64,000 bases of DNA, from positions 1 through 64,000 of the forward strand of contig JALSSC010000008.1 in assembly GCA_026984455.1 (NCBI GenBank). The letters are read 5' to 3'. Shown piece by piece: positions 29,919-32,680 of the stretch. The notes beneath the pieces were generated by a model that made no database searches, was not told the DNA's origin, and saw only the letters and a program-made list of their open reading frames with translations. The position numbers and the translations under genes were made by a program. This DNA comes from Chromatiaceae bacterium (GTDB lineage: Bacteria; Pseudomonadota; Gammaproteobacteria; Chromatiales; Chromatiaceae). The stretch's first letter is position 1, and each line of letters opens with the position of its first letter.

Positions 29919-31613
29919 TCACTCCTCGTCCAGGAACCCCTCCCGGAACAGATAGAGCAGGATATCCTGGGCGGCCTCGGCGGGTTCCAGGGTGCTGGTG
30001 TCGATGCGCAGCTCGGGCCTCTTGGGGACCTCGTAGGGATCGCTGATACCGGTGAATTCCTTGATGATGCCCTTGCGCGCCTTGGCGTACAGGCCCTTGC
30101 GATCACGCGCCTCGCACACATCGAGGGGCGTGGAGACATGGATCTCGATGAAGGCCCCGCCCTGTTCGATCAGTTCCCGTACCGCCCGCCGGGTCTCCTC
30201 GTAGGGGGCGATGGGGGCACAGATGGCCACCCCCCCGTTCCTGGTGATCTCGCTGGCCACGAAGCCGATGCGGCGGATGTTGATGTCGCGGTCGCGTTTG
30301 GAGAACCCCAACTCGCTGGAGAGGTTCTGGCGCACGATATCTCCGTCGAGCAGCGAGACCGGCCGGCTGCCGTGCTCCACCAGCTTGGCGAAGAGGATGT
30401 TGGCGAGGGTGGACTTGCCCGACCCCGACAGGCCGGTGAAGAACAGGGTGAATCCCTGGCGGCGGCGCGGCGGATAGGCCAGACACAGTTCGTCCAGGAC
30501 CTCGGGAAAGCTGAACCAGTCGGGGATCTCCCGGTCACGGGTGAGGCGTTCCTTGAGTTCCTGGTGGCTCAAGGTCTCGGACTCCAGGCCCTCGGCCTCG
30601 ATCCGGTCCACCGGCAGGAAACGTCGCCGGGCGGGGACGTAGCGGCGCTCCTTCGGGGTGAGGATCTCCATTCCGAGTTCCTCCGCGAAACCGGCGACGT
30701 ATTCCTGAGCGGCATAGGGCGCATAGCAGCGGCCGCCGTCGGCCATGCGCGGCGGCGAGGCGTGATCCGGTCCCACCAGGAAGTGGCTGCAACCGAAGTT
30801 GCGGTTGACCAGGGCGTGCCACAGGGCCTCGCGCGGCCCGGCCATGCGCATGGCCAGGGGCAACAGGGAGAGCATGGCGAGGTCATGGGGGAAGTGCCTG
30901 CGAATGGCCTTGTAGCAGCGCACCCGGGCATAGTAGTGGAGATCGCCGGGCTTGGTGGGGCCCACGGCCGGATGGAGGAGGATATGGGTCCCGGCCTCAC
31001 GCGCCTGTTCGAGGATGAGTTCGCGCTCCAGGCGGTGCATGGGGCGGCTGCTGTGGCAGGCCAGCACCCGCCGCCAGCCGCGCTTGCGGAACAGGTGGCG
31101 CAACTCCGCGGGGGTGTCCCAGAGGCTCTCGAAGTCGTGGTGTGCGGGCAACTGGACCCCCAGCACCCGGCCCCCCAGACGCACCGGGCGGGTCCCGTCG
31201 AGCAGGCGCATCACCCCCGGATGGTCAGGAGAATCGGTCCCGTAGACGGCCTCGGCCTCGGCCTTCGGGTCCGGTTCCCACACCGCCGTCAGTTCCAGCA
31301 CCGCGGGCATGAAGCCCTCGGCGTCGCGCAGGGCCACCCGGTCGCCGGGTGAGAGCCCCTCGGCGAAGGTCCGCTCCACGTCCAGGGTGATGGGGATGGG
31401 CCAGAGACGGCCGTCGGGGAGACGGGCCTGGCTCAACACCGAGGCATAGGCCTCGGGCCCCATGAAGCCATCGAGGGGGGCGAAGCCCCCGTTGAGCAGG
31501 AGTTCCAGATCGCAGAGCTGGCGCCGGTCGAGGGTCAGGGAGGGGTAGCCCAGAGAGGCCTTCCGCAGGGTCTCGGCGGTCTCCGCGTCCACCAACAGGT
31601 CTTCTTTCTCCAC
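29919..31613 (-). CDS. Sat/CysC fusion with degenerate sulfurylase motifs
   Basis: A 564-residue fusion, GTG start with AAGGAGACGAAC upstream. Residues about 1-370 are an ATP sulfurylase (PUA-like N-domain then catalytic domain); residues about 385-560 are an APS kinase with intact P-loop GLSGSGKST (394-402), DGDIVRQNL and the FSKRDRDINIRRI motif. In the sulfurylase half the Q-T-R-N signature is replaced by H-S-S-R (187-190), the second His of the HxxH pair is Glu (MHRLE, 192-196), and GRDHA reads GPDHA (281-285). The fold blocks LLPLAMRMAGPREALWHA and YYARVRCYKA remain. The kinase half should make PAPS, while the sulfurylase half may be inactive or altered. It lies 59 bases downstream of galE on the same strand. 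Confidence 0.9.
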   Translation of the reverse strand: MEKEDLLVDAETAETLRKASLGYPSLTLDRRQLCDLELLLNGGFAPLDGFMGPEAYASVLSQARLPDGRLWPIPITLDVERTFAEGLSPGDRVALRDAEGFMPAVLELTAVWEPDPKAEAEAVYGTDSPDHPGVMRLLDGTRPVRLGGRVLGVQLPAHHDFESLWDTPAELRHLFRKRGWRRVLACHSSRPMHRLERELILEQAREAGTHILLHPAVGPTKPGDLHYYARVRCYKAIRRHFPHDLAMLSLLPLAMRMAGPREALWHALVNRNFGCSHFLVGPDHASPPRMADGGRCYAPYAAQEYVAGFAEELGMEILTPKERRYVPARRRFLPVDRIEAEGLESETLSHQELKERLTRDREIPDWFSFPEVLDELCLAYPPRRRQGFTLFFTGLSGSGKSTLANILFAKLVEHGSRPVSLLDGDIVRQNLSSELGFSKRDRDINIRRIGFVASEITRNGGVAICAPIAPYEETRRAVRELIEQGGAFIEIHVSTPLDVCEARDRKGLYAKARKGIIKEFTGISDPYEVPKRPELRIDTSTLEPAEAAQDILLYLFREGFLDEE

Positions 31614-31672: not shown

Positions 31673-32680
31673 TCAGTACCCCTCTGGATTGGCTGACTGC
31701 CAGCGCCAGGTGTCGCGCACCATGTCTTCGATGCCGTGGGTGGCGCGCCAGCCCAGTTCACGCCGGGCCAGACCGGGATCGGCATAGCATTGGGCCACGT
31801 CTCCGGGGCGCCGCCCGACGATCCGATAGGGCACCTCGACACCGTTCACCTCGGCGAAGGCGCGCACCATCTCCAGCACCGAGTAGCCCTGCCCCGTGCC
31901 CAGGTTGTACACCACCCGGCCGGGATGGCCCTGGAGGCGCTCCAGGGCGGCCAGGTGGCCGCGCGCCAGATCCACCACGTGGATGTAGTCGCGCACCCCG
32001 GTGCCGTCGGGGGTGGGATAGTCGTCGCCGAAGACCTGGAGCCGTTCCAGCCGCCCCACCGCCACCTGGGCGATATAGGGCATCAGGTTGTTGGGGATGC
32101 CGTTGGGGTCCTCGCCGATGCGCCCGCTGGGATGGGCCCCCACGGGATTGAAATAGCGCAGCAGGGCGATGTCCCAATCCGGCTCGGCGGCGTGCAGGTC
32201 GCTCAGGATCTCCTCGATCATGAGCTTGGTGCGGCCGTAGGGGTTGGTGGCGGTGGTGGGGAAGTCCTCGCGGATGGGTACCCTGGCGGGGTCGCCGTAG
32301 ACCGTGGCGGAGGAACTGAACACCAATCGGCGGACACCGGCCTCCCCCATGGCCCGACACAGGTTGAGGGTGCCGCCGACGTTGTTTTCGTAGTAGTCCA
32401 GCGGGATCTCGCTGGATTCGCCCACCGCCTTGAGGCCGGCGAAGTGGATCACCGCCGCGCAGGGATGGGCGCGGAAGACGGCGCGCAAGGCCGGCAGATC
32501 GCGCAGATCGGCCTGCACGAACGTCAACTCGCGCCCGGCGAGGTCCTGGACCCGCGCCAGGGCCTCCGGTTTGCTGTTGCTGAGATTGTCCACCACTACC
32601 AGGTCGTGACCGGCCTGGAGGAGTTCGACGCAGGTATGGCTGCCGATGTAGCCGGCGCCGCCGGTGACCAGGACACGCAT
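31673..32680 (-). CDS. galE: UDP-glucose 4-epimerase
   Basis: NAD-dependent epimerase interconverting UDP-glucose and UDP-galactose, 335 residues. The Rossmann motif is GGAGYIGSH, the catalytic Ser/Tyr/Lys triad lies in FSSSATVYG and NPYGRTKLM, and family blocks FNPVGAHPSG, DGTGVRDYIHV and YNLGTGQGYSVLEM follow. It provides nucleotide sugars for surface glycans. It lies between the sulfate-activation gene and purA, all minus strand; whether they share a transcript is not clear. Confidence 0.95.
   Translation of the reverse strand: MRVLVTGGAGYIGSHTCVELLQAGHDLVVVDNLSNSKPEALARVQDLAGRELTFVQADLRDLPALRAVFRAHPCAAVIHFAGLKAVGESSEIPLDYYENNVGGTLNLCRAMGEAGVRRLVFSSSATVYGDPARVPIREDFPTTATNPYGRTKLMIEEILSDLHAAEPDWDIALLRYFNPVGAHPSGRIGEDPNGIPNNLMPYIAQVAVGRLERLQVFGDDYPTPDGTGVRDYIHVVDLARGHLAALERLQGHPGRVVYNLGTGQGYSVLEMVRAFAEVNGVEVPYRIVGRRPGDVAQCYADPGLARRELGWRATHGIEDMVRDTWRWQSANPEGY

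Follow-up and report, generated by a model that had tools for sequence, protein, structure and literature searches.

A predicted APS kinase with a sulfurylase-like N-terminal half in a Chromatiaceae bacterium, and the co-occurrence of such fusions with a second source of APS

Two-domain APS kinases with an inactive sulfurylase-like half have already been described, in T. denitrificans and in Entamoeba. According to later papers that cite them, Gay, Segel and Fisher (2009) reportedly described the T. denitrificans APS kinase (3CR8) as being without sulfurylase activity, and they are said to have proposed that its sulfurylase-like half stabilises a hexamer. In the case of the Entamoeba histolytica APS kinase (23VK, 23VL), the dead sulfurylase-like half boosts kinase activity, and removal of that half, or mutation of Y133 or of the interdomain contact E90, lowers kcat by 20-fold to about 100-fold, the authors cautioning about aggregation of the deletion mutant (PMC13213808). 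The opposite loss is found in the Penicillium chrysogenum ATP sulfurylase (1I2D, 1M8P), where an active sulfurylase is joined to a dead kinase-like half that binds PAPS. What is new here is the spread of proteins of the first kind and their coupling to a second source of APS; no earlier survey of degenerate fusions was found in the literature searched, the coverage of which did not extend to subscription journals.

The protein considered here is encoded in a window of 64,000 nucleotides from a Chromatiaceae bacterium, the window being the whole stretch of DNA that was analysed. The features of the gene and of its upstream neighbour are as follows.

31613..29919, minus strand: APS kinase with an N-terminal ATP-sulfurylase-like domain; 564 aa, GTG start, one open frame.
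30462..31613, minus strand: ATP-sulfurylase-like half, predicted non-catalytic; residues 1-384, with PUA_2 at 5-152 and ATP-sulfurylase at 163-376; complete modelled fold.
29922..30461, minus strand: APS kinase half, predicted active; residues 385-564; PF01583 at 206.6 bits.
31044..31055, minus strand: HSSR, replacing QTRN (Q195 T196 R197 N198 of yeast ATPS); residues 187-190.
31026..31043, minus strand: PMHRLE, with Glu at the second His of the HxxH motif; residues 191-196.
30759..30773, minus strand: GPDHA, replacing GRDHA (R290 to Pro); residues 281-285.
30552..30569, minus strand: SHQELK, replacing the conserved SG[T]E[LI]R (SGxExR) motif; the fourth altered motif.
31317..31319, minus strand: E99, placed by alignment opposite T. 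denitrificans E106 and Entamoeba E90.
30408..30434, minus strand: kinase P-loop GLSGSGKST, intact; residues 394-402.
30339..30347, minus strand: kinase DGD motif, intact; residues 423-425.
31673..32680, minus strand: galE-like sugar-nucleotide epimerase, upstream of the fusion gene on the same strand, with a gap of 59 bp.

The motif coordinates were checked by re-translating the window DNA. The Pfam order is PF14306 (PUA_2), PF01747 and PF01583, and the protein scores 783.7 bits against NF004040, the NCBIfam model of the bifunctional enzyme, for which the cut-off is 669. A frameshift or assembly error is excluded by the single open frame and by the occurrence of the trait in 61 related sequences. 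Upstream of the fusion gene lie hflK-hflC-hisZ-purA (hflK and hflC being identified by eye) and then galE, and it is possible that the galE-like gene and the fusion gene form an operon.

When aligned with the Penicillium, Aquifex and T. denitrificans enzymes, HSSR, HRLE and GPDHA sit without gaps in the QTRN, HxxH and GRDHA columns, and therefore a canonical sulfurylase motif elsewhere in the protein is excluded. The earlier note, made from the DNA letters, had reported these three substitutions, the retention of GLSGSGKST and a full-length protein without frameshift, and had called for an alignment to Sat proteins; each of its observations holds, the DGD motif being intact as well. It had missed the minus strand, the change in SGxExR, and the fact that this is a known kind of protein with a clade-wide trait, and its interpretation was thus supported in part. 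Positions 189 and 282 of the window protein correspond to R421 and R522 of human PAPSS1, the latter paired by motif rather than by alignment; these two arginines neutralise sulfate in PAPSS1, where mutants of the HxxH histidines lose sulfurylase and keep kinase activity (PMC11697783). As judged from its sequence, the sulfurylase half of the window protein is probably catalytically inactive, and the C-terminal half is likewise predicted to be an active APS kinase. The intact kinase motifs argue against a loss of kinase function. The window protein still has H193, G281, H284 and P287, so that some ligand binding is possible.

The closest likeness among the known systems is in T. denitrificans (Q3SM86, PDB 3CR8), which shares with the window protein its domain order, substituted sulfurylase motifs, an intact kinase and, most likely, a sulfur-oxidising host, with 50% identity over 486 aligned residues. 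However, the substitutions themselves differ (QARQ, HRAQ and GGEHQ in T. denitrificans; HSSR, HRLE and GPDHA here). The Entamoeba enzyme is alike in joining a dead sulfurylase-like half to an active kinase, both states being predictions for the window protein, but it has lost the substrate loop, has a shortened linker and is a dimer, whereas the interdomain linker of the window protein is full length and aligns to the active enzymes without deletion. In a comparison confined to the active enzymes, residues 181-301, around the active site, show no deletion. The Aquifex aeolicus SAT/APS kinase (2GKS) and the PRK05537/NF004040 fusions have the same architecture, but those fusions that are classed as intact keep QTRN, HxxH and GRDHA, all of which the window protein lacks. 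A fungal-type ATP sulfurylase, with an active sulfurylase and a degenerate P-loop, is excluded, as the window protein shows the reverse.

An AlphaFold2 single-chain model (65 aligned sequences; mean pLDDT 93.7, pTM 0.86) has a complete fold in both halves. Its best fold match over both halves is the Penicillium enzyme (Z 53, 561 residues, 2.5 A), with matches also to the yeast, Aquifex and T. denitrificans enzymes, and the kinase half superimposes on ligand-bound APS kinases at 1.2-1.4 A rmsd. Residue E99 is a glutamate in all 60 members of the main degenerate clade (see below) that have a residue there, and intact fusions, too, have it almost without exception; its partner, position 159, varies between Y, F and H.

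The window's genome (2.8 Mb, 79 contigs) is 94% complete, so that absences from it are provisional. Its organism is most likely a sulfur-oxidising gammaproteobacterium, since the closest named relatives are Chromatiaceae, Sedimenticola and further sulfur oxidisers. No APS kinase other than the window protein was found in this 94% complete genome. The earlier note had suggested that another Sat might lie elsewhere, and a canonical standalone ATP sulfurylase, with QTRNPMHRAH and GRDHA, is indeed present on contig C55 (G000:C55). In addition, aprA is found on contig C11, where a small ferredoxin-like ORF, aprB-like by sequence, stands in front of it, and two sulfotransferase genes are located on contigs C46 and C54. 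A search with PF01507, the Pfam family of both CysD and CysH, gave no match in the window's genome, the control being found in all 14 genomes; CysDN as the source of APS, and the use of PAPS for cysteine synthesis via CysH, are provisionally rejected on this basis.

The survey for the fusion family covered 369 genomes belonging to the window's class, together with a set of 55 relatives. Fusion proteins were read from 70 class genomes and 80 further named loci, and the label intact was reserved for fusions that retain all four of R197, H201, H204 and R290 (yeast numbering). The 146 distinct sequences comprise 67 intact and 79 degenerate fusions, and the P-loop residues G, G, K, S and T and the LDGD of the kinase are invariant in all 146. 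The 70 class genomes with a fusion divide into 33 with a degenerate fusion and 37 with intact fusions only. Of the 33 degenerate genomes, 27 carry a standalone sat, versus none of the 37 intact-only genomes; the corresponding counts are 32 of 33 versus 3 of 37 for sat or cysD, and 21 of 33 versus 0 of 37 for aprA. In the five degenerate genomes without a standalone sat but with cysD (G144, G260, G263, G359 and G360), cysD is the candidate source of APS. For standalone sat, Fisher's test gives P = 6e-14 but ignores relatedness, and such P-values overstate the case because the class genomes are related and provide only one phylogenetically independent pair on well-supported branches, which agrees with the rule. 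The sole degenerate class genome without another APS source, G349, is fragmented (410 contigs), and a second sat does occur in a close relative of it (L112, G403).

The same pattern is seen in 38 genomes hand-picked from the 80 named loci, a few of which (G404 and G019, for instance) duplicate class-set genomes. A second Sat-like gene is found in all 24 with a degenerate fusion, including sulfate reducers (Desulfobacteraceae, Desulfomonile and Desulfopila), that of G414 being just a fragment at a contig end. None of the 14 intact genomes has a standalone Sat, 13 having the fusion only and one having two intact-sized fusions. Each of the 37 standalone Sats that were read, by tblastn, keeps the R, H, H and R. 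Across about 100 genomes, loss of the catalytic sulfurylase residues is thus nearly confined to those in which APS can be had from another enzyme.

One fused-gene match (G060:C28:75636-76958) has seven in-frame stop codons and is probably a pseudogene. In G263, a degenerate fusion (L099, contig C31) and a cysD are divergently oriented, some 0.2 kb apart, and in a second fusion of that genome just the second histidine of HxxH is replaced (HRAY). In G031, the sulfurylase half of the fusion (L107) is eroded and the GRDHA region is missing, with an intact kinase and a normal standalone sat elsewhere in the genome.

Mapped on a tree built from just the kinase half, the intact and degenerate states require at least nine changes on the best tree, of which well-supported branches force just two. 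The window protein falls in a clade of 61 degenerate sequences from many families (SH-aLRT 99), referred to here as the main degenerate clade. Its members share replacements, and the Q, T and N of QTRN are kept as well in 67 of 67 intact fusions, so that the motif changes are not due to chance. Outside this clade, with weak support, lie T. denitrificans, some Desulfobacterota, two gammaproteobacterial families and a few singletons, and T. denitrificans possibly represents a separate loss, as judged from this tree. Three loci from assemblies named Gemmatimonadetes, Desulfocapsa and Desulfobulbaceae (L138, L140 and L143) nest in the main clade, which is mostly gammaproteobacterial; binning error or gene transfer would account for their placement.

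The reading that we consider probable is that the window protein is a monofunctional APS kinase that acts on APS from other enzymes, that its PAPS goes to sulfotransferases, and that its sulfurylase-like half is an oligomerisation and interdomain scaffold. The C-terminal half would phosphorylate APS to PAPS, and the N-terminal half would be unable to make APS because other residues stand in place of both sulfate-holding arginines and of the second histidine of HxxH. The APS would be supplied by the standalone canonical Sat and/or by AprBA of the sulfur-oxidation pathway; since a standalone Sat in a sulfur oxidiser may run in the direction of ATP, AprBA may be the source of APS instead. The folded sulfurylase-like half would be retained to build the oligomer and contact the kinase, as has been proposed for T. 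denitrificans and Entamoeba. Such a scaffold was among the roles that the earlier note had offered and is consistent with the evidence, whereas its suggestion of a new role was not borne out. The PAPS would most likely be used by sulfotransferases, because no CysH-family PAPS/APS reductase was found; like the scaffold, this use is what we infer. Of 16 genomes that were checked, 15 have sulfotransferase genes; in G113, G155, G366 and G409 such a gene lies within 5 kb of the fusion. In nine relatives, the fusion gene is adjoined by a gene for a DHH-family protein, with a weak Pfam match, which at a guess might be a pAp-phosphatase. Taken over all the relatives, the surroundings of the gene are not conserved. 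In one group of them, a conserved block of a metal ABC transporter-like gene, a PPK2-like kinase, the fusion and the DHH-family protein is found at L118, L123, L124, L129, L132 and L139.

A less likely role for the sulfurylase-like half is that of a regulatory sensor, one that binds APS, PAPS, ATP or sulfate non-catalytically and tunes the kinase, in a mirror image of the fungal ATP sulfurylase; we regard this as improbable. The pocket has not been replaced at random in the main clade (n=61), where the R197 column is changed from R to S in 84% of members, the R290 column from R to P in 92% and G288 to P in 92%, H193 being retained in 100%. A sensor would also fit the complete fold of the model, nearest to the allosteric Penicillium enzyme, and the Entamoeba precedent that a dead half can control the kinase rate (PMC13213808). 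However, the pocket columns (190, 195, 196 and 283, for example) vary more in the degenerate clade than in the intact enzymes, and the half has evolved about 1.7 times faster relative to its kinase than in intact fusions, as expected of a scaffold. The combination of S at R197, P at R290, P at Gly288 and a retained H193 is a doubtful candidate for the signature of an APS, sulfate or PAPS sensor pocket in organisms whose energy metabolism passes through APS, a state that was possibly reached more than once.

That the half is roleless and merely decaying towards loss is quite unlikely, in line with the view of the earlier note that the changes are not simple decay. The degenerate half evolves under purifying selection that has been relaxed, as evidenced by a dN/dS of about 0.42 (kinase, 0.19) versus 0.29 in intact fusions (kinase, 0.24), values from overlapping pairs in which dS is often above 1 and near saturation, and by a ratio of sulfurylase to kinase amino-acid distance of 2.71 versus 1.56 (non-overlapping pairs; Mann-Whitney P = 1.5e-7). 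Relaxation of this sort, and the strongly eroded half of the relative G031, are what decay would produce, but dN/dS remains below 1 and the frame is open at full length across the 61-sequence clade and its many families. Moreover, of 81 sulfurylase positions that are invariant in intact enzymes, the main clade keeps 46, has a new consensus at 3 (R189S, R282P and G288P, numbered as in the window protein) and is relaxed at 32, many of the latter surrounding the active site. Retention of ATP sulfurylase activity through an altered active site is hardly credible, for although the first HxxH histidine and most of the fold remain and the NF004040 model labels the protein bifunctional, both sulfate-binding arginines and the second histidine are lost, 32 of the 33 degenerate class genomes have another source of APS, the T. 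denitrificans enzyme with comparable losses reportedly lacks sulfurylase activity (Gay 2009, as cited in later papers), and the human PAPSS1 HxxH mutants are dead (PMC11697783).

The preferred reading, a monofunctional APS kinase with a scaffolding partner, bears on how this family is annotated. The NF004040 equivalog model scores degenerate members above its cut-off, and these would be named as bifunctional despite their substituted sulfurylase motifs. Roughly half of the fusion-bearing genomes in the sampled class hold the substituted version, which goes with an independent source of APS and above all with the dissimilatory Sat/Apr pathway. Many genes annotated as 'bifunctional sulfate adenylyltransferase/adenylylsulfate kinase' probably cannot make APS, and pathway reconstructions that count degenerate fusions as sulfate-activating would be wrong, the rule being one that can be tested for annotation. 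The degenerate fusions also provide a natural series for studying how a disused catalytic domain may serve the domain to which it is joined.
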